This document shows positions 4,237 to 55,741 of a DNA stretch of 64,000 nucleotides, in pieces; positions within the stretch are counted from its first letter, which is position 1; every line of letters starts with the position of its first letter. The stretch comes from Spinellus fusiger (taxonomy: Eukaryota > Mucoromycota > Mucoromycetes > Mucorales > Phycomycetaceae). Position numbers and translations under genes: made by a program. The notes beneath the pieces are model-generated. The model searched no databases, was not told the origin of the DNA, and was given only the letters and a program-made list of their open reading frames with translations. The stretch is taken from contig JALLLS010000027.1 of the NCBI GenBank assembly GCA_025094145.1, positions 124,001 through 188,000 on the forward strand, read 5' to 3'.

Positions 4237-4802
4237 AAAGAAGAGAAGGAGTGGATAGGTAGAAGAGTGCTATTCACACTTATTCTTTTCTTTTATATAT
4301 GTTTATTATTATTACGCTTCTTGTCCTTTTCTTTTTCTCTCTCTCTTTCTCTCTCTTTTTGTCAATGTGAGAGAAGCAGCAGAAGCAGCAGAAGAAGAGC
4401 AAAAAGGGAAGAAGAGGGAAGAAAACAAGATGCAAGGGACTTGAAATTTGGCTTCCCTTCTTTTTTTTTCCGCTAACAAAACAAGGAGGGAAAAATGGAA
4501 GCAGAGGAGAAACTCAACCTATACTCTCACTTTCAAAATAGAACTTACTTTTAAGCCTAAAAAGGAATGCGACCATTCACAGTGCGAGCAACGTGTCTTG
4601 AGCATTCATAAAGAGATACTGTGTGGGATGTAAAGTGGGATTATTCGGGCTGCTTTATTATCACAAGATACACTAGGAGGGTGGGTATAAGAGAAAAAAA
4701 GAAAGAAAAAAAAGAAAAAGATAAATCAAGCTATGTACAGGTAGAATAGTGAGAGAATCCCTCGTATGCCCTGCTTAGGTTGGGACTACATGCATAGGTG
4801 GA

Positions 4803-7198
4803 TTAATTTCCATTGGAGGTGAGTGCGGGTATGAGAGATGAGATGATTTCCAAGGGTTCAATGGGCTCGGTGGGTTCGGTGGGAGGAGTGGGAGGAGTGA
4901 GTTTGGTGTGTTGGACTGTCTTTAAGGGTTCTGCCTTTAAGGGTTCTGCCTTTAAGGGTTCTGCCTTGGTGAGTTCGGTAGGTTCGGTAGGTTCGGTGGG
5001 TTTGGTGGACATAACAGATAAAGAAGATACAGCAGCCTCAGTAGTAGTAGTGGCTGCTACTGCTTCTTCAGCAGCCTGTTCTTCAGCAGCCTGTTCTTCA
5101 GTAGTAACAGGAACTACCACAGCAGGCGCTGCCTCTATTGCCTTGGACATGGATCCCTTGCTGTGCTGGCTTGCCTGCTCACGGTCCACCTTCACCTTCA
5201 TAAGGAATTCGGGAACTGTCTCCACCAAATGCTTGTAGATCTCATCCGAACTCTGGTCAATGCCTGACTCCATCAGAAGAGAGACAAAGTGGGTTTGGAG
5301 TTCAGCAGTGGTAATGTGATCTATGGGAATACTGTCTGCGAACTGGTTGCACACATCTTGAAGGAAGGCCTGTCGTTCATCCCCCACACTTTCAGAAGTA
5401 TCATTCTCTCCACCAAAGAAGCGCCAGAACATCTCTTCAATCTGTTCACGGGCAGCATAGTCAATGATAATCTTCATATCAATTCTGCCTGGTCGCATCA
5501 TGGCTGGCTGAAGTTTGTTGATCTCATTGCACGTCATAAATATCACTAGAAATAGTCATTTTTTTAGCACATAAGCATCCTCTACTACGATAGAATTCCA
5601 TGACCATGGCTATGAACTTACTAGATCCTTCTTGGGCCTGGATTCCGTCCAATGCATTCAACATGCCTGCCATTGTCAAGCGAGGCTCTCTTCCACCCAA
5701 ATAATGATCGAGATCCTCAATGACAATGATGGTATTATCAGGACTACTGGTCAACATCTCACTAAACTCGCTGTCACCGGCCACTTCCGTCAGATTGATA
5801 AGGGCGATATTCATTCTCAATTTGCTCTAGTCTGAGTGAGATAAAGGTCTTTTTCCTTCTTTCTTTTTTATTGCTACAAGTGACTTACCGCAAGAGCCTG
5901 GATAAGTGAAGATTTGCCAGTACCAGGAGGACCGTACAAGAGGTAGCCACGACGGTAGGGAATGCCTCTGGATTTGTACCACTTCTTACGGTAAAGGAAG
6001 GTTTCCATGTCTGTTATGCACGCAATGAATGAATTTCATTCTCCTCTTGAACAAGTGAAAATTAAGACTTACCCGTCAAGATCTTCTCCTTGAGCCCGCG
6101 CTTAAGAGCCACTGTATCAAATCCACGTGGCTCTATTGTCTTTGAGGTTTCCCAGCCATAAATACCGTATCTGTAGATAGTCACCTAAAGAAGTAAAGTG
6201 TTCATGGTTAGGATTCATAGTGTATCTACCTATGGGCATCTACATGTCATCTATGGAGATGGAAGGGTGTACGACACTACTACTTACACTGTCGCCGTCC
6301 TCTTCGTTGTATTCGTCCGCCCACTCTTGCATAAACCGCCTCAGTTGAGCAAGATCGTTGCCTTTCATTCTAATAATAATAATAATAATAATATAGATGA
6401 ATAAAGAATACATAGGTGAGTCCAATGCAATGTCTCAATGGTATAGATTAGTAACTCTGTTACTTACTCAAAAGACAAATAGACATTGTAATCTCTTCTG
6501 ACCTTCTCATCACCATCACTTTTACGAGAGACATGAATTGTGTGTCCCTTGTAAGAAAGCTCTGCAGTGGTGTTGATAACTATGGGAAAGTGAATCCATA
6601 AAAATCAGTCTTTTTCTTCTTTTTGTAGAGGATGATCAATGCAGCCTAACTTACGAGGATAAAACCCAACTTTTGGCAATGGCTTGACAAGGGGTGTGTC
6701 CACTTGATGTACTTCTTCTGGCTCATAGTAAGCAACAGCTTCTGTCATTCCAGGAACACTCTTTGTATTCTTCTTGACAAAGTAGTCCATGGCATGGAAG
6801 AGGGCTTCTGCTGGTCTGACTTCTACAGAGACTGTGTTTTCAATCTTTTTGTTATAGAAGTAATATTCGATAAAGGAATCCCAGTAGGTCTTCAAAATGG
6901 CTATAGAGAATAAGTGAGTGAATTATGTCTCCGAGATGGATAGATAAAATATAGATATTTATAAAAACCCTACTAGAAGGACTAGCTTACGTGTGACATA
7001 GACAATGATACTCAGCATAACAAAATCGTTACCAAAGTAACGCTTTCCAAGCTGCGTAAGGCGTTGTCCCAAAAGACTTTCCCAAAAAGATTCTTCAGAT
7101 ATCTTTTCAAGAAAGGTAAGGACTTTGTCTAATACTAATTGAAGATGCTTCAAAGTCGCTTCTCTCTTTAATGCGCTAGTAGTGGCTACTGTAGACAT
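4803..7198 (-). CDS. BCS1-like AAA ATPase
   Basis: AAA-type ATPase of the Bcs1 family. The family founder is a mitochondrial inner-membrane translocase that inserts the Rieske protein into complex III; other fungal members have unassigned substrates. About eight exons on the minus strand: exon 1 starts at ATG 7198 ([17 protein letters not shown]), with later exons near 6902-6654, 6585-6470, 6370-6286, 6186-6074, 6015-5890, 5825-5623 and 5547-4803. The Bcs1-specific region contains [17 protein letters not shown], followed by the Walker A motif [11 protein letters not shown] (about 5900-5935), Walker B IIVIEDLD (about 5705-5730), and the sensor/arginine-finger stretch RPGRIDMKI (about 5480-5500). 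A hydrophobic stretch near residues 60-75 may be the membrane anchor. The C-terminal tail is unusual: low complexity, with three tandem KAEPL units (4920-4965) and several TEP repeats. Which Bcs1-family role it has cannot be decided here. Confidence 0.87.
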
Positions 7199-10100: not shown

Positions 10101-10620
10101 CTTATTGATTTATTTATAAATATAAATAATGACGTGGAACAAGCCTTCACTCTATGGGCTACAACATGAAAGTATCAACATATCACTGTACATACAGTCA
10201 GGGCGATCTATTCAATGAGTAGTTACCAATGCTAATGATCCAAATAGGATTTTCTCCTATTGAACTCTTCCATTCGTAAGATGGCATATAGCACTTGCTT
10301 ATTCACCAACACAAAGAAACATCATTCTATTTCTGTATGAGGATTGCTCTTAAAGACTAGGTAAAATGGTACATCGAACTAGATAATTTATACTTTGCCA
10401 AACAATTGTACTTCTATAGAGTCTCTTTGTACACACCAGGAGGTCTTTAGGATATAAAAAGAAATAGTCGAAATACAATTGTTTAGAAATGACACATCGA
10501 TTTGAAAAGGAGCAAAAATAAACTAAGATGTATTCATGTTAGTTCTTAAAGATTATTATTATAATTTAGCTGTAAATATCTGAATCCCGAAGAAAACCAC
10601 TTTCAATGTGGCGATATATA
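7199..10620. other. Gene-poor stretch, no recognisable gene
   Basis: About 3.4 kb with A/T runs and a short tandem repeat of a gtagatgtgt-type unit (about 7610-7650). The first few hundred bases should hold the BCS1-like gene's promoter, but no motif stands out. Open frames at 8464-8727, 8817-9008 and 9018-9278 (+) and 9735-9977 (-) are short, show no family motif I recognise and lack convincing splice links. They may be remnants of an old mobile element. Confidence 0.6.
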
Positions 10621-10622
10621 AT

Positions 10623-10686
10623 ATGAATGCATCAAAGAATATCTACTCTTATGTGACTGTATAGATACCCTTTGATGCATTCACAT
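10623..10686. repeat. Imperfect inverted repeat at the 3' end of the Fanzor-type relic
   Basis: tgaatgcatcaaagaatatc at the left pairs with gataccctttgatgcattca at the right, with about two mismatches in 20 and a loop of roughly 20 nt. The right arm is the NRDVNASKGI coding segment, so the palindrome straddles the end of the open frame. Such a structure could be part of a guide-RNA scaffold or element end, or simply a local duplication. Confidence 0.6.
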
Positions 10687-11150
10687 CTCTGTTCTAAACA
10701 ATTCCGCAACTTTGGCAAGCGCGGATAGTGTTGAAATTCACTAATACCTCAGTGAGGATATTTGTGTTATAAGTGTGACAGATCTTGAGAACAAAAAAAG
10801 AAGACAAAGTAACTGTTAGAAGAGCTTTTCATATTGGGTGAGAGATCAATCATGTTTACCTTTGATATTCGAAACTTATCAACATCAACTACAAGAAGAT
10901 CTTCGTCTTTTTGTCTCTTTTTCGATGATTGATATAAAATTCTTGTCAAACTAACACGATGACCTTTAAACTTGGCAGTTTGGTAGGATCATACTCTAAT
11001 CTTTTTAGGTGCCAATACCCCTTCTCACTAATAAAACAGTAAAAATGATTAGTTCGAGATGTATTAATGTACTCTCTATGTGTGTGTCGTATTACCCTTG
11101 CACTGACAGCTTCTTCTTGCCTTTGTCTTTGTAACAGATTCACTGGGCTT
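10649..11150 (-). pseudogene. Decayed Fanzor/TnpB-type nuclease, C-terminal part
   Basis: Read on the minus strand with small introns spliced out, this stretch gives FKGHRVSLTRILYQ, then LLVVDVDKFRISK, an intron (about 10866-10790, GTAAAC...CAAG), then ICHTY, RACQSCGIV, a TAG stop and NRDVNASKGI. This order is the signature of the TnpB/Fanzor C-terminus: the RuvC-II strand (here VDKFRISK for the usual VDEFRTSK), a four-cysteine zinc ribbon, and RuvC-III W-N-R-D-x-N-A. The gene is broken. The first ribbon pair reads C-H-T-Y, so a cysteine is lost. The tryptophan expected before NRD is a TAG stop (10694-10696). The glutamate of VDEF is lysine. The remaining upstream piece (about 10946-11143) gives EKGYWHLKRLEYDPTKLPS. 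No complete RuvC-I region was found. It is clearly distinct in sequence from the four Fanzor copies elsewhere in the window. Confidence 0.72.
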
Positions 11151-14100
11151 ATTAAAATAAAAGAATATACAATAGAAACTGACTAACATGTCAGACATAA
11201 TAAACATATAATCACCAGATCACAACTGTTGGTTTATATGCCAGACAAAGACAAACAAGTTAAAGAGGGTAGAAGTTATGAAGAACAACAGACAGTGTAA
11301 TTAGCAGGTATTAATATCCGAGCAGAAGAGAACAAAACGAATTTTCACAAGTCACTTGCTTAATCAGAACTACCAAAGTAATGCAGACTACAACAACATT
11401 CTAGAAAGAAAAGAATTCCTTAAAGAACAGTTGCCTAGTTACCCATTGTGCTCAAATCGTGTGTTGTGTTCCTGTTCATGTACCCTCTTTGATTTCCCTA
11501 GACTAGCCTTTGTAATAATACTCTATTTCGTAGTCCCTGCTAGAGACCCAATATCTATACATTTATCTCTCTAGTGGTCCTGTTGATAACCTTAGTACTC
11601 TTTATTACAAATACTTGCATGCCTTTGATTTTAAACACAGATACATAAAAGGGAACTTTTTATTGGGACATAAAAGGAAGGAGATATCACCGCCTAAAAG
11701 CCAGAAATATCTCCTGGTGTGTAGAGCTGGGTGTCTTTGGCTTAGATTCCATAATAGACTTACCCTTTTTTTGTCTTATGCTTATCATAATCATTTTTCA
11801 TTCTCAATGGAAGAGTGGATACACAATAGATCAAGCTATACAGAAATAAAGATCTCTGTTATCAATAGATACTCTATTTTGATTTTTGTTCGGAAAATAG
11901 ATGGCCCGTACTGTTTTACCTTTCTTATCAATGCTACACTAAAAGGATGAAGAAGTATAGAATAAGTAAATAATAAGTAAATAAAACAATTCACAGATGG
12001 CAGATTTGATATTTAAGTTGTTTTATAAATCCAGATATGGATAGAAGCATACCTTTTTTCTTTCTTTCTTTCTATTTCTATTTCTATTTCTCTATGTATT
12101 CATCTTGAAACAATCTTCATTGTCTGATAAAATAAAAATAAAAAGTACTTTCTTTCCATCTATAAAGGATCTGTGACCAATCAACAGATCTTCAGGACTC
12201 TTCTGTTGCTATAAAAGAAAGTATTTTGTTTTTGTTACAGGCTCACTACCAAGTAGATTGATTGATATGAAAACACCTACCCACTATTAGAATGTGGGCT
12301 TCTGCTTGCCTGCACCCTCCCTGATAGGTTGTGTGTATGTAAATAAAATTAAAGGCACTGAATTGCATACAAAAAAGAAAAAAAAAAAGAAAAAAAGAAA
12401 AAGGGCTTTTGAATGCTGCTATTATTTTATGCTGAGAGATACAAGGTAGTTTGGTGAACTGAGTTTATACCAGAGAAATGCATCAAGACATCATGTAGAC
12501 TTATATTCTAAATTAAATTCGTCATTGGTCAATCAATGACAGTGTCCATCTCCATGGAGATGCCTGTTTCCATAACAACTCATTGGCTATCTTAATAAAG
12601 ATTATCTTTGCTATTTTAAAAGAGTAGAAATATCTTTGGAATAGAATATCTGCTATAAAATTAAGGCCAATGTGTTGACTTTTGTTTACTAGAGGTGTGA
12701 TTAAGAGTGAGTCCATGCCCCATTCAAGTAGGTTGATAATGAGAACAGTCAATGTACATATTTTAAAAAGGTTATTCTATCAAAGCACCTAATGATTCGT
12801 CAACACGTATTAGGAATATACTACTAGAATATAGATATTGATTCAGCAGCCAATAGAATACGAATTTATGCTTGGTAAAGAGTCGTGTAAGCTAAACAAG
12901 AAATACAGGGAAAAAGCAAGCACCTAGGCAAATGAATAGAATGTTTTTATAACCCTGGACTTTATCTTGTTATATCAAGCCCTGAAATTGAATGTAGTTT
13001 TTGGATGGGAACAGCATTCAGTGCCAAGATCATTGCAATTGCTTTTACTTTTATGGAGTGTGAGCTAACACAAGGCCCTGATAGGGGTTCCATTGAGTAC
13101 ACAAATATGTCTGAAAAGAGAAGAACACCACCAGTCACCTTTTGCCTAGGAACAGTGGGTGTTTATTCTCTTGCAGGAATGGCATACACTACCATGAGAT
13201 CAATCCACCACTTCTATTGCTAAACTATCCCTTTCTTATCCAATATCACCCGATACAATGTGGTTACTCTCTACAACACCCCCCTCCCCTAAGTAATCAG
13301 GCTATTTCAAATCTCTTATCAAAGCATTCATAACGTGGCAACAATACAAATACATGGGTTAGCAATGAAAATAGAAATCAATGCTAAAGGCTGGATAGTA
13401 TGTTATCAGCAGAAGATAATGATAATGATAATGATAATAGTATAATATAATATAATATAAAAATAAAAATAGCCACCTTAGTAAATGTCTTTTCTTCTTC
13501 TCTTATAGACTCATCTTTATTCATCTATTCTTCTCTCCATATTCAATGACATTACATTGTTTCTTTTCTATTCTTTTTATTTGGAAGATACACCCATAAA
13601 AGAGTACAGTCTGTGTTCTTTATTATTACTATTACTATTATTGGACTATGTATCTACTTAACAATTCCAATCTCTCTCCATAACTTCTTTTCTCCTTGAT
13701 AGACATAGTCATATGAATGAATATCAATGGATATCCATGATCGCCTATAGAGAATAAGTTATGAATGTATTACCAAATGTCTAGTATAAAATGATAATAA
13801 TATAAATAGTAAAATTATCTATAGAGAACACCTATCCATCATAACACTCTATTCTATCTATTCTCTCCATTTTCTCTCTCTTTCTCTCTCATCTCTACTA
13901 AGAATACTACTGTTTTCTTTTTCTGTTTTTTTGTTGGCAGACTTCTCTTTGAACTACTTTCATTAGACCCCATTTTTATCACGTGATATGTACAAGGATG
14001 GAAATTGCCTTCACAGAAACGCTTCTTCACTAGTGCACTGTAAAAAAAACCACCCTTCACTCACTGCCATTTTCTCTCCTTTTCTTCCCTCTTTTCTTCT

Positions 14101-17130: not shown

Positions 17131-17212
17131 ACATGGCAATAATAAAGTGTACACAGCGCCTACTTTTTTTTTATTTATTTTACAACTCTAGAAGATAGTC
17201 AAGTATTATATA

Positions 17213-17306
17213 CTAGACATTTTAATGTCTTTTACATGAAAAAATTCAATAAGATACACTTAATTATTATTTTGGATAGTTTACCTGTAGCATGGGTTTC
17301 CGTCTG
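17213..17306 (-). ncRNA. Candidate Fanzor guide-RNA (omega-RNA-like) tail, copy 1
   Basis: TnpB and Fanzor guide RNAs are generally made from the element's end just past the nuclease gene, with the guide read from flanking DNA. This 94-bp tail lies between the old Fanzor stop and the element boundary, and ends in a perfect palindrome (stem 17215-17221 with 17224-17230, agacatt/aatgtct). The assignment is by position only; no expression or fold was tested. Confidence 0.3.
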
Positions 17307-17846
17307 TTAGTCAACTGAGGCTCCAGCAATAACTGGGGAGGAGAAAGATGGAGATGAACCAATAGATTTGGACCTTTTCTTGGTTTTAGTAGTATCTTTA
17401 TGTTCTCTTTTGTTATATCCACAAAAGCACTATGAGAGGGTACCATTTTCCCTTGGAGACATTAGACTATGTCCAAAGTTCAATGTAGCAGCTAGATCAC
17501 AGTTCCAAACCCTCAATGTCTTGTCTTTCATACAATATTGGTTTGAACACCTATTTGAAGGGAGAAAGATGAGTTTCTTTTTTGGTATAAAATTAAGAAG
17601 AAATGACCTGAGAAGACCATGACATTTAACTTGGAGCATTTTTGTTCGTTGATAGGACATAGGGTTCTTGACATGTTTAAATGTTTCCAAAGGTGAGAAC
17701 TTGCACCCAGGACACAGGCTCGATGTTTTGAATTCATTGATAAGATAGAGTCTGAATCCTTCTTTCTTCAACATCCTCCGCATGTCTTTTCCCTTTATTG
17801 TCATTCTTCTGGTAGGATTCGCACCTGAATAACTTGCTATAGTCAC
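17307..17846 (-). pseudogene. Fanzor (TnpB-like RNA-guided nuclease) C-terminal fragment, copy 1
   Basis: Homologous to the C-terminal third of Fanzor proteins, eukaryotic relatives of TnpB that act as RNA-guided DNA nucleases. Visible in order: an ASYSGAN segment; GKDMRRMLKKEGFRLYLINEFKTSS, whose glutamate in INEF is the RuvC-II position; the zinc ribbon CPGC...CSNQYC; CHGLLRS; and the RuvC-III motif LRVWNCDLAATLNF, whose Asp is kept while the usual Arg of W-N-R-D is Cys. An in-frame TAG (17430-17432) cuts the frame after PRENGTLS. Beyond it the same frame continues with CFCRYNKREHKDTTKTKKR to a TAA at 17307, which resembles the basic tail of intact Fanzors. An AG acceptor (tttctatag) lies just before the frame, so it was probably an internal exon. 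No RuvC-I aspartate was identified upstream. Likely inactive. Confidence 0.78.
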
Positions 17847-19057
17847 CTATAGAAATCAAATACATGTAAGAACCCTAGGTTGATTCTATAAGCACATTGT
17901 GTGTTTTCTTGAATTTATTCGTATCTTGTTGACTGTATAACATCTTTAGTTCAGAAAGAATAGATAGAAATACAATAAGAAAAAGGAAAAGGAAATAAAT
18001 AGTTATTGTATTAGCAACATTGAATAGTGCCAGCTATTATTTATCATCCATTGATGTGATGGTGTCGTTAATAGCTTCTTAGGTCCAAAGGTATTGTTTT
18101 AGTTAACGTACGACTCACACTGCTCTTTTTTTATTCAACCTGTATGTTATTATTTTATTCTAATGATTATTACAGATAGAAGAACTTTAAGGAAATAACC
18201 ACCAAAAGCTACATATACTAATGCAGGCTATTGTAGTTTTATATTATCTCTGAAAAATCCATTCACTGTATTCAAATATACTACAGCTTATCATAGATGC
18301 TTCATCACAAACCATTGATTGTGTAGCTGTTTTTTATGAACTTTTAACTGTTAGTTTCTTGCTGTTTAATACAAGAACTAAGGTAACAGCATTCTGTATG
18401 CTGCTTATTATATCTCTTCTCAGTGTTTCATGGTTATGCTGTATGAGATTTAGGCAACCTTGTTCAATGTTAGTATATACTCTGTACTGATAAAAAGGCT
18501 TTCCAAATAAATGCAAGTGATTTATTTTTCTGTACATCAATCCTAAGCAGTAGTATTTTAGTGTGCTTATCTTGACATTTTGGTCATTGACTGAGCATGT
18601 ATCTCTATTCTAACCTAACTGCACTGTATGAAGAATAAGTACGTAGCTCATAGGATCATGCGACTGATTTATCTCACTCATTCTTTACATTAAGATACCA
18701 TTTCTTGGTCTTATCACAGTGACACCACTTTCTGTTTGGTTTCTATCAGTATTTGGACAGTTGAAATGACTTTTGTGTAAATGACCATATCCATAACAGT
18801 TTGTATATCTATTTTGAAGATGGTCCACTCAAAAGAAGTTATTGGGTATATATTCAGGATAAACATACTTGTTCAAGAAAGTGTTAATACAGTCATACTC
18901 AACTGAATCTAATCATTTTCAAGATAAATATCAGGACGAAATAGATAGAACATATTCAACAGTAAATAAAACACTTTACATTTGATTTAGAATATTCAAA
19001 CTTAAACACAACAAAACTCAATATCTTTAATTATCGAAAATAGAAAAATAATAGGAA

Positions 19058-19783
19058 TTAATATTTTGTATGCCCTCCTTTGGCATCAATGACTGTCTGG
19101 TATCTATCTGTCATACTTTGAATTTATTATTGTGCAAGTTCAATACCAAATCCCTCCTACTCTTCTGCAAGTAGAATATTCAAGATCTCTACATTGTTAA
19201 TAGATACCCTTCTTTCTTCAATTCGTCTTTCTATAGCCCACCAGATGTGTTCAATTGGATTCAAAAAGGGCTTTGTGTAGGTCAGTAATTAAAGCCCCTA
19301 ATCTAATGTGTCTCTTTTCACCATCTAGCATAGACCCCAGTATGACAGCTAGCACTCTTTTATTGTAACAGAAACTCGTTTTTTTTCTTTCTGATACAAT
19401 TCCATGAACCAAGGATGGAACTCACCAACTAAAACAGTGATGTATTCGTCTTAGTTTACAGTGCCATCAACAAAGACTAATGGGCCAAATCCGTCAGCCT
19501 AATGGCAGCTCCAAAACATCACACCATCGCCACCAAACTACATTGTTGGAGCAATAGTATTATAACTATAACGTTCTCTAACAATTTTAATGACATACAT
19601 ATCTCTATCATTCCCTTTCATAATGTATGTTGACTCATCAGACTAAATGATACCTCTCCACTAATCACTCGTCCAATTGATATATTCCTTAGCCCAACAA
19701 AGCTGTTTCTCTTTGTATTTTGCAGTCAAGGCTGCCTTGTGGTCTACAGAAAAGGATACATACTCTAACTGATTGCAGTAGCT
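19058..19783 (-). pseudogene. Tc1/mariner transposase fragment, copy 1
   Basis: The minus strand encodes the C-terminal half of a Tc1-type DDE transposase. Recognisable pieces are SDESTYIMK, VMFWSCH, GPLVFVDGTVN, NPIEHIWWAIERRIEERR, and the typical tail SMTDRYQTVIDAKGGHTKY followed by TAA. Several in-frame stops interrupt it, for example after WSCH and after VDGTVN. The N-terminal DNA-binding half is missing because the element is cut at 19783. Confidence 0.8.
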
Positions 19784-19855
19784 GATAATATTATATATAT
19801 ATATCAAGCTAATCAAAACTAGAAATAAGAAAATAAAGTAGTGATAAAAGGCTGT

Positions 19856-27300: not shown

Positions 27301-27341
27301 TATCTTTAGGGCTATCCATGGTAGCTGTTGGGTAGTTAATA

Positions 27342-27436
27342 CTAGACATTATAATATCTTTTTGCATGAAAAAATTCAATAAGATACACTTAATTATTAT
27401 TTTGGATAGTTTACCTGTAGCATGGGTTTCCGTCTG
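27342..27436 (-). ncRNA. Candidate Fanzor guide-RNA tail, copy 2
   Basis: A 95-bp tail equivalent to that of copy 1. The terminal palindrome is imperfect here (agacatt facing aatatct). Assigned by position only. Confidence 0.28.
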
Positions 27437-27976
27437 TTAGTCAACTGAGGCTCCAGCAATAACTGGGGAGGAGAAAGATGGAGATGAACCAATAGATTTG
27501 GACCTTTTCTTGGTTTTAGTAGTATCTTTATGTTCTCTTTTGTTATATCCACAAAAGCACTATGAGAGGGTACCATTTTCCCTTGGAGACATTAGACTAT
27601 GTCCAAAGTTCAATGTAGCAGCTAGATCACAGTTCCAAACCCTCAATGTCTTGTCTTTCATACAATATTGGTTTGAACACCTATTTGAAGGGAGAAAGAT
27701 GAGTTTCTTTTTTGGTATAAAATTAAGAAGAAATGACCTGAGAAGACCATGACATTTAACTTGGAGTATTTTTGTTCGTTGATAGGACATAGGGTTCTTG
27801 ACATGTTTAAATGTTTCCAAAGGTGAGAACTTGCACCCAGGACACAGGCTCGATTTTTTGAATTCATTGATAAGATAGAGTCTGAATCCTTCTTTCTTCA
27901 ACATCCTCCGCATGTCTTTTCCCTTTATTGTCATTCTTCTGGTAGGATTCGCACCTGAATAACTTGCTATAGTCAC
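27437..27976 (-). pseudogene. Fanzor C-terminal fragment, copy 2
   Basis: Same frame and motifs as copy 1, including the zinc-ribbon cysteines, VWNCDLAATLNF and the early TAG (27560-27562). It differs at two residues: KKSSLC for KTSSLC and KILQ for KMLQ. Confidence 0.77.
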
Positions 27977-29145
27977 CTATAGAAATCAAATACATGTAAG
28001 AACCCTAGGTTGATTCTATAAGCACATTGTGTTTTTTCTTGAATTTATTCGTATCTTGTTGGCTGTATAACATCTTTAGTTCAGAAAGAATAGATAGAAA
28101 TACAATAAGAAAAAGGAAATAAATAGTTATTGTATTAGCAACATTGAATAGTGTCAGCTATTATTTATCATCCATTGATGTGATGATGTCGCTAATAGCT
28201 TCTTAGGTCCAAAGGTATTGTTTTAGTTAACGTACGACTCACACTGCTCTTTTTTTATTCAACCTGTATGTTATTATTTTATTCTAATGATTATTACAGA
28301 TAGAAGAACTTTAAGGAAATAACCACCAAAAGTTACATATACTAATGCAGGCTATTGTAGTTTTATATTATCTCTGAAAGATCCATTCACTGTATTCAAA
28401 TATACTACAGCTTATCATAGATGCTTCATTACAAACCATTGATTGTGTAGCTGTTTTTTTATGAACTTTTAACTGTTAGTTTCTTGCTGTTTAATACAAG
28501 AACTAAGGTAACAGCATTCTTTATGCTGCTTATTATATCTCTTCTCAGTGTTTCATGGTTATGCTGTATGAGATTTAGGCAACCTTGTTCAATGTTAGTA
28601 TATACTCTGTACTGATAAAAAGGCTTTCCAAATAAATGCAAGTGATTTATTTTTCTGTACATCAATCCTAAGCAGTAGTATTTTAGTGTGCTTATCTTGA
28701 CATTTTGGTCATTGACTGAGCATGTATCTCTATTTTAACCTAACTGCACTGTATGAAGAATAAGTACGTAGCTCATAGGATCATGCGACTGATTTATCTC
28801 ACTCATTCTTTACATTAAGATACCATTTCTTGGTCTTATCACAGTGACACCACTTTCTGTTTGGTTTCTATCAGTATTTGGACAGTTGAAATGACTTTTG
28901 TGTAAATGACCATATCCATAACAGTTTGTATATCTATTTTGAAGATGGTCCACTCAAAAGAAGTTATTGGGTATATATTTAGGATAGACATACTTGTTCA
29001 AGAAAGTGTTAATACAGCCATACTCAACTGAATCTAATCATTTTCAAGATAAATATCAGGACGAAATAGATAAAACATATTCAACATTAAGCATACCAAA
29101 GCTCAATATCTTTAATTATAGAAAATTATAGAAAAAAAATAGGAA

Positions 29146-29641
29146 TTAATATTTTGTTTGCCCTCCTTTGGCATCAATGACTGTCTGGTATCTATCTGTC
29201 ATACTTTGAATTTATTATTGTGCAAGTTCAATACCAAATCCCTCCTACTCTTCTGCAAGTAGAATATTCAAGACCTCTACATTGTTAATAGATACCCTTT
29301 CTTCAATTCGTCTTTCTATAGCCCACCAGATGTGTTCAATTGGATTCAAAAAGGGCTTTGTGTAGGTCAGTAATTAAAGCCCCTAATCTAATGTGTCTCT
29401 TTTCACCATCTAGCATAGACCCCAGTATGACAGCTAGCACTCTTTTATTGTAACAGAAACTCGTTGTTTTCTTTCTGATACAATTCCATGAACCAAGGAT
29501 AGAACTCACCGACTAAGACAGTGATGTATTCGTCTTGGTTTACACTGCTATCAACAACGACTAATGAGCCAAATTCATTAGCCTAATGGCAGCTCCAAAA
29601 CATCACACCATCACCACCAAACTACATTGTTGGATCAATGG
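29146..29641 (-). pseudogene. Tc1/mariner transposase fragment, copy 2
   Basis: C-terminal part only. At the site where copies 1 and 3 have a stop after VDGTVN, this copy has CAA (VNQDEYITVL), so it preserves an older state there. The stop after WSCH is shared with the other copies. Confidence 0.78.
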
Positions 29642-48100: not shown

Positions 48101-48952
48101 CTATAAGCCTACAGTATTTGCAGTATAGCACTGATTAAGAAAGATGTTTATTATAAGACGCACACTGAATTAACTCTAGTGGTAATTGTCCATAAAATAG
48201 AACCAAACTTACATTGAGAACAGTGTATTCATTTATTGACTCACTATCTATAATCACCTCAATTATCTTATTGTAACTGGTATTAACAGTGGTGCTTAAT
48301 GATAACAAAGCATTGTTTCTAATATTGGACTTTAGGCTCAAGGTAAATAGAGTGTAAATTGTTTGACTTGTAGACTATAGAGAATTGTAGGATAAAGTGT
48401 AATAGATAACTAGAATAATAGATGAAATATTATTTGTTTTGATATTCCCCTCCTTTTGTTATTTCTTACACTGCCCATACAACTTAACACCCAAGTACTC
48501 GTCAAGATGAGCATAAATAAGCAAGGTAATGTGCCATTATTAACAAAGAGAAACAATAAAAGGAAGTGACAGACACCACCAAGGACTATTCTAGTGATAA
48601 AAAGGTAAGCAGTGTCTTTATCTGGGCTTGATCTCATTACAACCCACAAGACACTCATCGTATTGTTATTAATAATCAAAGACTCCTTTCAAGTCAGTAC
48701 TAAGTATTCTTCTATACTGTCTAGGGTGTCTAGGGTATACTCCTGAGCATAGTTATCTATCTCCCAAGGATAAAGCACAAGGCTTTCAGGGTATAGATTC
48801 TATTTCTATGAGGAAATTCACTTATTCAGTGGCTATAGTCATAATATAGTATTATCTATACCATTACAATAAACAATGCTATTCGTCAACAATATTCTAT
48901 TGATAATACAATTTGATAGCGAGTTATCTTAGAAAAGGAAATACTAATTTAG

Positions 48953-49068
48953 ATACTTGCAAACCTTCTGATTTTAAACACAGTTCCATAAAAGGGCAAA
49001 ATATTTTTCGGTCTTAAAAGGAAGGAGATATCACCGCTTAAAGGCCATAAAAATCTCCTGGTGTGTAT
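48953..49068 (+). repeat. Dispersed repeat family A, copy 2
   Basis: Counterpart of 11611-11726, in the same orientation, with roughly 80-85% identity by eye. Confidence 0.7.
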
Positions 49069-49325: not shown

Positions 49326-49586
49326 TGTATTCAGGGGTTAACTATCGAAAATACTGTGAACTATCAACATCCCTTGATGTTCGATAGAGTCCTCTTCTCG
49401 TTTTGGCAATTAATGAGTTCTAATTCTCAAGAGAGTGATTCTTCCAAACATAGCAAAAAGCCTTCACGACACTGGTATTTTATTGTTTATATGAATGTCC
49501 AACAAAAAAAGATCAACTGTTGGCTATTCTTTTTTTTTTCATGGACTGTGATTTCTGTTGATAGGTAATTTATAAGTGTTTTTCTA

Positions 49587-49681
49587 CTAGACATTATAAT
49601 ATCTTTGCATGACAAAATCGAATAAAATACACTTCATTATCGCTTTTTAGATAGTTTACCTGTATCATGGGTTTCCGTCTG
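49587..49681 (-). ncRNA. Candidate Fanzor guide-RNA tail, copy 3
   Basis: A 95-bp tail, nearly identical to copy 4 but about 15% different from copies 1 and 2. Assigned by position only. Confidence 0.28.
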
Positions 49682-50221
49682 TTAGTCAACTGAGGCTCCA
49701 GCAATAGCTGGGGAGGAGAAGGATGGAGATGAACCAATAGGTTTGGACCTTTTCTTGGTTTTAGTAGTATCTTTATGTTCTCTTTTGTTATATCTACAAA
49801 AGCACTATGAGAGGGTACCATTTTCCCTTGGAGACATTAGACTATGTCCAAAGTTCAATGTAGCAGCTAGATCACAGTTCCAAAGCCTCAATGTCTTGTC
49901 TTTCATACAATATTGGTTTGAACACCTATTTGAAGGGAGAAAGATGAGTTTCTTTTTTGATATAAAATTAAGAAGAAATGACCTGAGAAGACCATGACAT
50001 TTAACTTGGAGCATTTTTGTTCGTTGATAGGACATAGGGTTCTTGACATGTTTAAATGTTTCCAAAGGTGAGAACTTGCACCCAGGACACAGGCTCGATG
50101 TTTTGAATTCATTGATAAGATAGAGTCTGAATCCTTCTTTCTTCAACATCCTCCGCATGTCTTTTCCCTTTATTGTCATTCTTCTGGTAGGATTCGCACC
50201 TGAATAACTTGCTATAGTCAC
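49682..50221 (-). pseudogene. Fanzor C-terminal fragment, copy 3
   Basis: As copy 1, with LRLWNCDLAATLNF and NFISKKKL instead of LRVWNCD and NFIPKKKL. The TAG after PRENGTLS is at 49805-49807. Confidence 0.77.
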
Positions 50222-51428
50222 CTATAGAAATCAAATACATGTAAGAACCCTAGGTTGATTCTATAAGCACATTGTGTTTTTTCTTGAATTTATTCGTATC
50301 TTGTTGGCTGTATAACATCTTTAGTTCAGAAAGAATAGATAGAAATACAATAAGAAAAAGGAAATAAATAGTTATTGTATTAGCAACATTGAATAGTGTC
50401 AGCTATTATTTATCATCCATTGATGTGATGGTGTCGTTAATAGCTTCTTAGGTCCAAAGGTATTGTTTTAGTTAACGTACGACTCACACTCCTCTTTTTT
50501 TATTCAACCTGTATGTTATTATTTTATTCTAATGATTATTACAGATAGAAGAACTTTAAGGAAATAACCACCAAAAGTTACATATACTAATGCAGGCTAT
50601 TGTAGTTTTATATTATCTCTGAAAGATCCATTCACTGTATTCAAATATACTACAGCTTATCATAGATGCTTCATCACAAACCATTGATTGTGTAGCTGTT
50701 TTTTTATGAACTTTTAACTGTTAGTTTCTTGCTGTTTAATACAAGAACTAAGGTAACAGCATTCTGTATGCTGCTTATTATATCTCTTCTCAGTGTTTCA
50801 TGGTTATGCTGTATGAGATTTAGGCAACCTTGTTCAATGTTAGTATATACTCTGTACTGATAAAAAGGCTTTCCAAATAAATGCAAGTGATTTATTTTTC
50901 TGTACATCAATCCTAAGCAGTAGTATTTTAGTGTGCTTATCTTGACATTTTGGTCATTGACTGAGCATGTATCTCTATTCTAACCTAACTGTACTGTAGG
51001 AAGAAAGAAGTACGTAGCTCATAGGATTATGCGACTGATTTATCTCACTCATTATTTAGAGTATGCTGGCATCTCTTGATCATATCACAATGTCTCTACT
51101 TTCTGTCTGGTATCTATCATCATTTAGACAGTTAAGATGACTTTTCTACAAATAGCCATATCCATAACAGTTTGTATATCTATTTTGAAGATGGTCCACT
51201 CAAAAGAAGTTATTGGGTATATATTCAGGATAAACATACTTGTTCAAGAAAGTGTTAATACAGCCATACTCAACTGAATCTAATCATTTCCAAGATAAAT
51301 ATCAGGACAAAATAGATAGAACATATTCAACAGTAAATAAAACACTTTATGTTTGATCTATAAGCTTCAAACTTAAGCATATCAAGTCTCAATATCTTTA
51401 ATTATCGAAAATAGAAAAATAATAGGAA

Positions 51429-52340
51429 TTAATATTTTGTATGCCCTCCTTTGGCATCAATGACTGTCTGGTATCTATCTGTCATACTTTGAATTTATTA
51501 TTGTGCAAGTTCAATACCAAATCCCTCCTACTCTTCTGCAAGTAGAATATTCAAGATTTCTACATTGTTAATAGATACCCTTCTTTCTTCAATTCGTCTT
51601 TCTATAGCCCACCAGATGTGTTCAATTGGATTCAAAAAGGGCTTTGTGTAGGTCAGTAATCAAAGCCCCTAATATGATGTGTCTCTTTTCCCTATCCAGC
51701 ATAGACCCCAATATGACAGCTAGGACTCTTTTATTGTAACAGAAACTCATTGTTATTCTTTATGGTGCAAGTCAATGTACTAAGAATGGAACTCACCAAC
51801 TAAAACAGTGATGTATTCGTCTTAGTTTACAGTACCATCAACAAAGACTAATGGGCCAAATCCGTCAGCCTAATGGCAGCTCCAAAACATCACACCATTG
51901 CCACCAAACTACATTGTTGGAGCAATAGTATTATAACTATAACGTTCTCTAACAATTTTAATGACATAGGTATCTCCATCATTCCCTTTCATAATGTATG
52001 TTGACTCATCAGACTAAATGATACTTCTCCACTGATCACTCGTCCAATTGATATATTCCTTAGCCTAACAAAACTGTTTCTCTTTGTGTGTTTTTCAGTG
52101 AAGGCTAGCTTGTGGTCTACAGAAAAGGATACATACTCTAACTGATTACAGTAGCTGATAAGGGTGTCTCTACATACATCCACCTCAAACTTCAATATTC
52201 TCAATGTCGGTTGATTGTATGAGGCAAATGGATCCTTTCTAATAACATCTTTCCATGTGTCTTGAATCCATCTCATTAACTTTTTAGGGGTTTCCATGAC
52301 TCTATAAATGCAATAGTGGTCTACACTCTTTGATGTTTCT
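51429..52340 (-). pseudogene. Tc1/mariner transposase, nearly full length but broken
   Basis: It retains N-terminal sequence missing in the other copies: ETPKKLMRW for the GRPKKL linker, then DTWKDVIRKDPFASYNQ and VCRDTLISYCNQLEYV (second helix-turn-helix). This is followed by FTEKHTKR and, in shifted frames, SDESTYIMK. The DDE core and C-terminus match copy 1. It has several stops and at least one frameshift near 52080-52100, where copy 1 differs by a few bases. The far N-terminus fades out near 52340. Confidence 0.78.
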
Positions 52341-53138
52341 AATACTACTTTAAACTATAGGCTTTTCCCTCACAATCACACTCATAGCCAACTCTAATCC
52401 AGTCATAAACAGGCAATAAATACCCTATCATCTTCCATATTTTGTCTTGTCCTATTCTCCACAAATGTAATATTCTGAATATCCATATAAAATAATGTGT
52501 TGGCCTAACACTATTAAGAAAGAACAGAGCTTCATACAATAGAAATAAGTCTCTCTTCTTTTATCACCATGCTTCCCAACAAATATATTAAATAGGTTAT
52601 GTACTGCATACAGATCCTGTAGAGTACGGTCACTGCAAATATATTAAATAATAAATTCAATGAGGGTGACTGTGCACTATCCATCAACCAATCAATTAGC
52701 CGGATTGTCCCTTCTTAAGAAGTGATTTTTCAGTAATTATATAGTTAAGCTATAGTTAAGCTATAGTTATAGTTATAATAATTCTATTCTTTAGATACAT
52801 CTTCTTATGAGGAAAGGCTACTCTATGTGGAATGTACCCTCAACACTAACATCTCTTTCTCTCCTATGGACATTTTTATTTGAGAATTTTAGTCATGTCA
52901 ATCTCATATGACTATGACTATCATTCATATATTTTTACTTATACTTTTGACGCGTCATTTCTTACTTGTCACTCCCCTACCTAATTGCCCTCTTCTTTCT
53001 AGTGCTCTACCCTCTACCCTCTGGTATGTCTCCACACCTGCCATGGATACATCTCCTTTTTCTGCTTTATTTCCTGCTTTACACACGTACAAAAGCACAA
53101 CTGTCTGTGACTTATTTTATATTATACAAAAAATATAT
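52341..53138. other. Spacer with no recognised gene
   Basis: It holds a 64-codon minus frame (52345-52539) of unknown origin, possibly part of the element upstream of the transposase, a ctatagttaag tandem repeat near 52740-52780, and the region downstream of thioredoxin. The plus frame 52908-53456 is mostly antisense to thioredoxin. Confidence 0.5.
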
Positions 53139-53502
53139 TTATTGAGACAAAGCAATAAGCTTCTCTTCAACATTGCCAGCACTGGCACCCACCACTTCAT
53201 GGGCCTTTACACCATCCAAGAAGTAGGCAAAGGTAGGCATGGCACGGACACCCACTTCAGAGGCAACATCAGGGACATCATCTACATCCACCTTGGCAAA
53301 GACAATATCGGTATATTTGTTGGAGAAGCCTTCGTATTTGGGGGCAATCACTTTGCAAGGACCACACCAGGTAGCGTGGAAATCAACAACAACCTAGTTG
53401 GGTTGGTACTTTTGCTCTTTTCAGTAGCATCTAACTTACTTTCTTGTTGGTGTTAATCAATTCATGGAACTGCTGGAGGCTGGTAATAGTGACAAGAGGC
53501 AT
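53139..53502 (-). CDS. Thioredoxin
   Basis: Small cytosolic disulfide reductase, 105 residues, from two exons (53502-53440 and 53393-53139). Start MPLVTITSLQQFHELINTNK; active site FHATWCGPCKVIAPKYE with the WCGPC pair; then KVDVDDVPDVASEVGVRAMP, which holds the cis-proline, and FAYFLDGVKAHEVVGAS. The length is normal and all key residues are present. There is no targeting peptide. It sits in the loop between two inverted Fanzor elements but is itself intact. Confidence 0.95.
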
Positions 53503-53655: not shown

Positions 53656-55104
53656 TGGCTGGAATTGAATTGCCTGAACATAATGGGGGAAGATAAGTGT
53701 AATAAGAGAAGAGAGTTGCGTCATATTATTCATGACTAAGAGTACACACACTAAGCGATTCTTCTGGCCTTTAAACAGTGTCTTTTCTATTTACACCTAA
53801 AGATTTTTCTGGTTTTAAAGCAGTAGACATCCCTTTCTTGTTACGTAATAAGTAATTGCTTTATATTGATGCCAAAGGAGGGCATACAAAATATTAATTC
53901 CTATTATTTTTCTATTTTCGATAATTAAAGATATTGAGACTTGATATGCTTAAGTTTGAAGCTTATAGATCAAACATAAAGTGTTTTATTTACTGTTGAA
54001 TATGTTCTATCTATTTTGTCCTGATATTTATCTTGGAAATGATTAGATTCAGTTGAGTATGGCTGTATTAACACTTTCTTGAACAAGTATGTTTATCCTG
54101 AATATATACCCAATAACTTCTTTTGAGTGGACCATCTTCAAAATAGATATACAAACTGTTATGGATATGGCTATTTGTAGAAAAGTCATCTTAACTGTCT
54201 AAATGATGATAGATACCAGACAGAAAGTAGAGACATTGTGATATGATCAAGAGATGCCAGCATACTCTAAATAATGAGTGAGATAAATCAGTCGCATAAT
54301 CCTATGAGCTACGTACTTCTTTCTTCCTACAGTACAGTTAGGTTAGAATAGAGATACATGCTCAGTCAATGACCAAAATGTCAAGATAAGCACACTAAAA
54401 TACTACTGCTTAGGATTGATGTACAGAAAAATAAATCACTTGCATTTATTTGGAAAGCCTTTTTATCAGTACAGAGTATATACTAACATTGAACAAGGTT
54501 GCCTAAATCTCATACAGCATAACCATGAAACACTGAGAAGAGATATAATAAGCAGCATACAGAATGCTGTTACCTTAGTTCTTGTATTAAACAGCAAGAA
54601 ACTAACAGTTAAAAGTTCATAAAAAAACAGCTACACAATCAATGGTTTGTGATGAAGCATCTATGATAAGCTGTAGTATATTTGAATACAGTGAATGGAT
54701 CTTTCAGAGATAATATAAAACTACAATAGCCTGCATTAGTATATGTAACTTTTGGTGGTTATTTCCTTAAAGTTCTTCTATCTGTAATAATCATTAGAAT
54801 AAAATAATAACATACAGGTTGAATAAAAAAAGAGGAGTGTGAGTCGTACGTTAACTAAAACAATACCTTTGGACCTAAGAAGCTATTAACGACACCATCA
54901 CATCAATGGATGATAAATAATAGCTGACACTATTCAATGTTGCTAATACAATAACTATTTATTTCCTTTTTCTTATTGTATTTCTATCTATTCTTTCTGA
55001 ACTAAAGATGTTATACAGCCAACAAGATACGAATAAATTCAAGAAAAAACACAATGTGCTTATAGAATCAACCTAGGGTTCTTACATGTATTTGATTTCT
55101 ATAG

Positions 55105-55644
55105 GTGACTATAGCAAGTTATTCAGGTGCGAATCCTACCAGAAGAATGACAATAAAGGGAAAAGACATGCGGAGGATGTTGAAGAAAGAAGGATTCAGA
55201 CTCTATCTTATCAATGAATTCAAAACATCGAGCCTGTGTCCTGGGTGCAAGTTCTCACCTTTGGAAACATTTAAACATGTCAAGAACCCTATGTCCTATC
55301 AACGAACAAAAATGCTCCAAGTTAAATGTCATGGTCTTCTCAGGTCATTTCTTCTTAATTTTATATCAAAAAAGAAACTCATCTTTCTCCCTTCAAATAG
55401 GTGTTCAAACCAATATTGTATGAAAGACAAGACATTGAGGCTTTGGAACTGTGATCTAGCTGCTACATTGAACTTTGGACATAGTCTAATGTCTCCAAGG
55501 GAAAATGGTACCCTCTCATAGTGCTTTTGTAGATATAACAAAAGAGAACATAAAGATACTACTAAAACCAAGAAAAGGTCCAAACCTATTGGTTCATCTC
55601 CATCCTTCTCCTCCCCAGTTATTGCTGGAGCCTCAGTTGACTAA
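55105..55644 (+). pseudogene. Fanzor C-terminal fragment, copy 4
   Basis: Protein identical to copy 3 over the open frame. The premature TAG is at 55519-55521, and the old reading frame continues through CFCRYNKREHK and VIAGASVD to TAA 55642-55644. A ttctatag acceptor at 55095-55105 precedes the frame, so an upstream exon is expected; the 68-codon frame 54416-54622 (MMYRKINHLHLFGKPF...) is a possible but unproven part of it. Confidence 0.78.
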
Positions 55645-55739
55645 CAGACGGAAACCCATGATACAGGTAAACTATCTAAAAAGCGATAATGAAGTGTATT
55701 TTATTCGATTTTGTCATGCAAAGATATTATAATGTCTAG
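55645..55739 (+). ncRNA. Candidate Fanzor guide-RNA tail, copy 4
   Basis: The 95-bp tail read in sense orientation ends agatattataatgtctag, directly followed by TA and host sequence. Assigned by position only. Confidence 0.28.
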
Positions 55740-55741
55740 TA

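Follow-up and report, generated by a model that had tools for sequence, protein, structure and literature searches.

Fanzor1 genes carried by mariner elements and by Helitrons have already been published (PMC3627910; PMC10711439). CRe-1, CRe-2 and CRe-3 of Chlamydomonas are described as Fanzor1-bearing non-autonomous Helitron2 elements (Bao and Jurka 2013, PMC3627910), and PGv-1 and PUl-1 as Tc/mariner elements with a Fanzor1 gene (PMC3627910). A further Fanzor element, MCi-2 of Mucor circinelloides, was left unclassified in 2013 according to the same account (PMC3627910).

The window, that is, the whole stretch of 64,000 bp analyzed here (C118:124001-188000 of the 38.08-Mb, 197-contig Spinellus fusiger assembly), contained four units in which, as the initial annotation had reported, a Fanzor C-terminus was joined to a Tc1/mariner sequence at one junction (TGTTAA joined to TACAG(C/T)C in 4/4 window copies). 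The main unit, read here as a non-autonomous Helitron-Fanzor derivative with a nested mariner, extended over 49585-52743, with ends common to other copies and with the minus strand as the sense strand of both Fanzor and Rep; its end lay about 400 bp past the position 52340 first assigned to it. The second copy (17211-19788, minus strand) was 5'-truncated within the mariner and had the 9-bp direct repeat TATTATATA at both boundaries, and the third (27340-29634, minus strand) was likewise 5'-truncated within the mariner, without a boundary repeat. The fourth (53865-55741, plus strand) was inverted with respect to the main copy and 5'-truncated at the mariner 3' end; it retained only about 200 bp of mariner and no transposase domain. 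Identity to the main unit over the common part was 96% for the 17211 copy, 94% for the 27340 copy and 100% for the 53865 copy, and the left boundary, taken in the orientation of the element, was the same in all four (17211, 27340, 49585 and, in reverse, 55741). An open frame resembling thioredoxin (WCGPCK; 53139-53393, minus strand), identified by eye only, was located in the interval separating the main copy from the inverted fourth one.

The 3' terminus of the outer element, AGATATTATAATGTCTAG at 49585-49604 (minus strand), was made up of a 6-bp palindromic hairpin and CTAG, followed by TA. When the 3' ends were aligned, the CTRR terminus and upstream hairpin of Helitrons were recovered as CTAG in 38/41 ends, and the next base was T in 41/41. 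The 5' terminal arm, of about 70 bp (52675-52743, minus strand), started in sense orientation with TATAATTACTGAAAAATCACTT after an A; the outer 5' end was TATAATTACTGAAAAATC, in short form TATAATTACTG, with A as the preceding base in 22/23 cases and, at the position before that, A or T in 23/23. The 5' TC terminus of Helitron1 was not found, since the outer element starts with TATAATTACTG. In the terminal hairpin 98.2% of cells were paired, as against 17-53% when the alignment was slid by 1-3 columns; pairing and covariation were not above shuffles (109 and 87 of 500 shuffles, respectively). With up to two mismatches the 3' motif gave 320 strand-matches in the genome and 4 in the control, palindromic sites possibly counting twice, and the 5' motif gave 85 and 0, a one-ended pattern in which motif divergence and palindromy may widen the gap. 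No inverted repeats between the two outer ends were seen by eye, and the value observed in a search for short asymmetric terminal inverted repeats of the Helitron2 type was reached by 658/1000 shuffles; a short palindrome at the 5' end was seen by eye only. Five 3' ends (C195:97239, C24:531028, C182:92047, C79:223398 and C133:95629) were soon followed by a stretch resembling the element's own 5' end (up to three mismatches; control 0), either a target preference or a tandem remnant. Head-to-tail tandems were not accepted, and in L023 the likeness stops after about 13 bp.

Remnants of a Helitron Rep-helicase gene were found in the same family. A 91-aa frame at 50704-50979 (minus strand) was homologous to, and represented the same segment as, the Helitron_like_N (Rep-N) fragments of sister copies; the window frame itself gave no profile score, and its best E-value against the PDB was 0.32, nothing meaningful. 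Against PF14214, the sister copy L023 reached E=6e-5 and a query joined from pieces of L009 reached 9.3e-6, both under the curated cut-off. This Rep-N family gave 27 matches in the genome (60/60 candidates scored) and was found in 0/14 control genomes. Two PF14214 matches lay within copies of the element (C64:10708 in L022 and C195:98422 in L023), one inside an arm match (C110:1151696) and two at 511 bp from a 5'-end motif (C124:79703 and C124:141687); these five scored 24.0-26.0 bits against a curated cut-off of 28.9. In addition, a PIF1 helicase fragment overlapped the arm edge, on the Fanzor-sense strand, in 7/7 copies with an arm match from query 183/184. On C2, a colinear series on one strand comprised, within 4.5 kb, Rep-N (406505-407006) and PIF1 (408273-408887), both over the cut-off, the Fanzor C-terminal domain (CTD; 410405-410928) and the 3' end (411010-411028). 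At this RepHel locus there was no RuvC-segment match among the best 120 of 388 candidates and no 5'-end motif at up to two mismatches, and among the loci read none combined an intact RepHel, an intact Fanzor and both ends. RepHel was thus represented by fragments inside or overlapping copies, with Rep-N under the cut-off in the mariner-bearing ones. We conclude that the outer element is, to judge from its sequence, probably a Helitron derivative.

The Fanzor part of the main unit consisted of a 138-aa frame (49805-50221, minus strand) with the INEF motif, the zinc ribbon and WNCDLAA, and with RuvC-I deleted; its coding part would continue to a stop near 49690, according to an alignment with L010. 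This frame matched Parasitella parasitica Fanzor 1 (PDB 9cf0; phmmer E=1.1e-18) across INEF, the zinc ribbon and WN-D-LAA, and the Spizellomyces Fanzor with E=2.7e-4; PF07282 was reached at E=7.5e-4 only, under the family cut-off. Of the Fanzors with a solved structure, the one from Parasitella, a fungus of the Mucorales, was closest to the Fanzor of this genome. The C-terminus named in the initial annotation was thereby confirmed, but not the nuclease: of the features of a Fanzor1 nuclease (RuvC-I aspartate, rearranged RuvC-II, zinc ribbon and RuvC-III), RuvC-I was missing from the window units.

A longer parent copy elsewhere in the genome, L074 (C90:141000-143500), had DPGRRD as RuvC-I and the rest of the Fanzor1 features too, matched 9cf0 with E=4.9e-86, and ended in the same palindromic 3' terminus, with stops in its C-terminal part. 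The full copy L013 aligned to L074 at 1-587 and then at 579-775, with about 1.65 kb skipped, and this alignment shows the internal deletion that removed RuvC-I from Fanzor. By tblastn, RuvC-I (near residue 138) was covered by 0/21 junction copies matching the RuvC segment of the parent (the four window copies and 17 from L009-L028), all of which started at residue 291 or later; L025 carried the junction without a match to that segment. Outside this set, L067 covered RuvC-I and also had the mariner left repeat, and L069 kept N-terminal Fanzor pieces together with the same repeat. Since both keep the mariner plus other Fanzor pieces, the arrival of the mariner in the family predates some or all of the Fanzor deletions. 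Judged from these alignments, the window Fanzor is an internal-deletion remnant and not a nuclease gene, and lacking RuvC-I it should not cleave.

Across the genome, the 182-aa L010 frame as query gave at least 150 matches (best 150 of 541 candidates), a few of them in long frames extending upstream, and the parent's RuvC segment gave at least 121 (best 120 of 388 candidates), with stop-free matches at C110:854376 (663-aa frame), C2:336851 (641 aa) and C121:236970 (550 aa). Such long-frame copies might act in trans. Purifying selection on the Fanzor remnant was rejected, the median dN/dS of the C-terminus being 0.80, which indicates little constraint (33 pairs with dS>0.05, drawn from a set of 11 stop-free copies that left out those with stops or partial matches; the copies were not independent, as six come from the tight cluster on C118 and one C-terminus is common to L010 and L017). 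A second, very abundant repeat family was noticed around PF07282 zinc-ribbon matches (147/150 over the cut-off; best 150 of 457 candidates), with related pieces in the window at 10430-11723 and 48505-49067, one of them to the left of the main unit. In the loci of this repeat family (L029-L048) the end motifs of the unit were missing in 20/20 at up to four mismatches, and the Fanzor CTD had no tblastn match.

Seven copies (L059-L061, L065 and L071-L073) retained nothing of the Fanzor side but its final 172 bp, a part that would suit a transposition end or the end of a guide RNA, or serve as both. Over the terminal 175 bp, aligned from 36 copies, RNAalifold gave no structure beyond the 6-bp terminal hairpin, and a conserved guide-RNA scaffold was rejected on this result. 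A more elaborate reading, an RNA-guided Helitron family in which the Helitron 3' hairpin doubles as the guide-RNA end of Fanzor, flank-matching sites are cut by a full-length Fanzor acting in trans, the derivatives keep the 172 bp for both functions and the mariner rides along, is considered improbable. The (A/T)ATA at the 5' boundary is similar to the 5'-CATA target-adjacent motif of SpuFz1 (PMC10432273), and no conclusion was drawn from this similarity.

The mariner was placed inside the unit. Its left terminal inverted repeat, TACAGCCATACTCAACTGAATC (22 bp; 51259-51280, plus strand), lay at a TA, and its right repeat, the degenerate AAATTCAATGAGGGTGACTGTG (52653-52674, plus strand), was aligned by eye; both were internal to 49585-52743 and not at its outer ends. 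The right repeat was near-intact in L012, L017 and L022. Broken transposase remnants (51437-52354, minus strand) included NPIEHIWW and ended, in a by-eye translation, with DAKGGHTKY and a stop, motifs that we take to be those of a Tc1/mariner transposase. The initial annotation had recommended profile searches; they found DDE_3 (PF13358) only in the relatives L022 (E=5e-7) and L062 (3.9e-8) of eight pieces scanned, and left the window transposase without a Pfam score and the Fanzor frame below the cut-off mentioned above. The window mariner was 73.5% similar to L022 DNA over 1288 columns, so that its assignment, although upheld, goes through these two relatives, the DNA similarity and the motifs read by eye. 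L022 contained a stand-alone mariner (1367-2719) with a near-identical left repeat and an inverted copy of it at the far end, and it was thus in relatives that DDE_3 and matching inverted repeats were found, both repeats being present in L022. The inverted repeat was found at the junction (up to five mismatches) in 18/20 loci of L009-L028 and 7/8 of L049-L056, the misses being L020 (main copy), L028 and L055; those loci that carry it, like all four window copies, had TGTTAA or a close variant as its context.

Two further loci with both outer ends were informative. L060 had no mariner, its left arm running up to the junction and continuing with the 5' arm; 37 bp at the junction were unaligned, so that L060 could have lost the mariner by deletion instead of showing the site before insertion. 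L062 carried a different Tc1-type mariner in the opposite orientation. Because the mariner stands alone in L022, is absent from L060 and is replaced by another in L062, it is most simply explained as nested in an older element, and it looks like a passenger rather than the engine of spread.

The initial annotation had interpreted the locus as a Tc1/mariner with Fanzor cargo, in a layout like that of bacterial tnpA-tnpB elements, and had advised looking for full-length copies with both ends and a TA duplication. A true Tc1/mariner that captured a Fanzor and is moved by the mariner transposase, as PGv-1 is, would agree with the common strand and the constant junction of its two parts, with the TA after the outer 3' end and with the three copies ending at or near the mariner right repeat. 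It is nevertheless largely refuted by the internal position of the mariner repeats, the outer ends being unlike them and showing no consistent target duplication. The copy without mariner and the copy with another one, the Rep and PIF1 remnants, and the transposase frames, among which no long one was found (longest, 121 aa across eight mariner regions scanned), also argue against it. Tc1/mariner as the motor was rejected once its repeats proved internal to the unit, and we regard it as very unlikely.

Among 31 copies dissected, 14 reached the 5' end (8 of them picked for that feature), 3 ended at or near the mariner right repeat and the remaining 14 counted as truncated, including L009, L011 and L018, which were close to full length. 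The 3' end was reached by 39 of the best 40 matches, the query being anchored at that end. Direct repeats of 9, 8 and 8 bp were present at the boundaries of 3/31 copies (the 17211 copy, L021 and L027), whereas 9/930 non-self pairs reached 8 or more; the mean shared-flank length equaled that of shuffles (85/200 at least as high). These 31 copies thus showed no general signal of target duplications and a weak excess of 8-9-bp boundary repeats. A plain Helitron leaves no 8-9-bp direct repeats at its boundaries, and those three copies count against the Helitron reading. The 5' truncation and the boundary repeats would suit a LINE-driven, target-primed copying of a transcript ending at 49585, which predicts constant 3' ends, truncation to differing extents at the 5' side and short duplications of the target; however, the flanks as a whole did not exceed shuffles, poly-A was not seen at the 3' ends and many copies had a precise 5' end too, so that this explanation appears slightly less probable even than a mariner motor.

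In L012 (4637-4658), L017 (4770-4791) and L027 (about 5001-5020) the Helitron-type 3' end was kept and the other end lay at or near the mariner right repeat, as if this repeat were usable as an alternative end. In L020, a piece (4518-5961) ran from the mariner left repeat to the outer 5' end, about 200 bp from an oppositely oriented copy. These three ends and the L020 piece are not explained by the Helitron reading.

When 49587-52340 was compared by BLAST with its own genome, at least 62 matches were obtained (best 40 of 1155 candidates); among the matches listed, four on other contigs covered the entire 2754-base query, and copies on other contigs were 75-95% identical to the unit. Diverged copies with the same Fanzor/mariner junction were found on many contigs, which shows a mobile family rather than one segmental duplication. 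Flanking sequences were unrelated immediately at the element ends, both for the window units and for these diverged copies, and the unit has therefore transposed. Moreover, 49585-51461 and 53865-55741 were about 100% identical across 1877 bp with different flanks, indicating recent activity. Movement as a single piece, which the initial annotation had deduced from the shared junction, was supported, since dispersed copies agreed in their ends and in the junction inside the unit, and flanks differed between close copies with 94-100% identity. An element pair was repeated with near-identical spacing at C68:377487-386282 and C69:12989-21792, perhaps on allelic or duplicated contigs. Segmental duplication of a single nested insertion, the composite never having transposed, was rejected as hardly credible: near-identical copies do cluster locally in contig C118, but flanks differ exactly at the precise 3' ends, for the window units as for the diverged copies elsewhere, so that of this refuting scenario, foreseen at the outset, the nested insertion was found, copied by transposition. 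The unit is a real, mobile and recently active Helitron-Fanzor derivative with a nested, decayed mariner, which had been misread.

Taken as a whole, the locus is very probably a non-autonomous Helitron-Fanzor1 derivative mobilized in trans by RepHel, with a hitch-hiking nested mariner. In this reading, it derives from a Helitron family with a Fanzor1 gene on its 3' side; the internal deletion of about 1.65 kb took most of Fanzor, including RuvC-I, and further deletions most of the Rep-helicase gene. A Tc1/mariner inserted about 70 bp inside the outer 5' end, when some or all of the Fanzor deletions had yet to happen, and later decayed. The composite was then amplified through its outer ends, the 5' end TATAATTACTG after an A and the 3' hairpin with CTAG before TA. 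Its motor is probably the RepHel protein of other Helitron copies, acting in trans by a rolling-circle transfer that would keep the 3' end and often stop short of the 5' end, which would account for copies truncated at the 5' side. For movement, the unit would need neither the transposase of the mariner nor its own remnant of Fanzor.

The locus brings together a Fanzor1-Helitron association and Rep-helicase remnants inside one family, and it is a warning that a transposase next to a Fanzor need not be its motor. This genome has Fanzor copies with long frames, about 300 matches to the end motifs and local copies of very recent origin side by side, which makes the role of Fanzor for the transposon testable here. 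No description of the nested Helitron-Fanzor-mariner arrangement was found in the Fanzor papers covered, mainly open-access ones, which is not proof of absence.

As far as the cited descriptions go, PGv-1 and PUl-1 resemble the present unit in combining Fanzor and a mariner transposase in one mobile unit, and differ in having mariner inverted repeats and TA duplications at their outer ends, whereas the mariner repeats here are internal (PMC3627910). MCi-2, compared by description only, also has a fixed Fanzor-bearing 3' part, a variable 5' part and no inverted repeats, but its duplications are of 11-12 bp, ATAATTNNNN(N) (PMC3627910); the present family may suggest a class for such unclassified Mucor Fanzor elements. 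Helraiser/Helibat, as reported, shares the CTAG 3' terminus and the palindrome just upstream, and its insertion between A and T is like the target suggested here, whereas it starts with TC and has alternative ends at its 3' side, the truncation here being 5' (PMC4778049). CRe-1, CRe-2 and CRe-3 differ in target (TTTT, against insertion apparently between A and TA here) and in the asymmetric terminal repeats of Helitron2, which were not detected here; unlike them, the present family has Rep-N and PIF1 fragments in its copies and a nested mariner (PMC3627910). They nonetheless share with it a Fanzor1 in a Helitron, a 3' hairpin, 5'-truncated copies with intact 3' ends and direct repeats flanking truncated copies, the latter rare here, and the one-ended pattern observed in this genome is that of these Chlamydomonas Fanzor Helitrons (PMC3627910).
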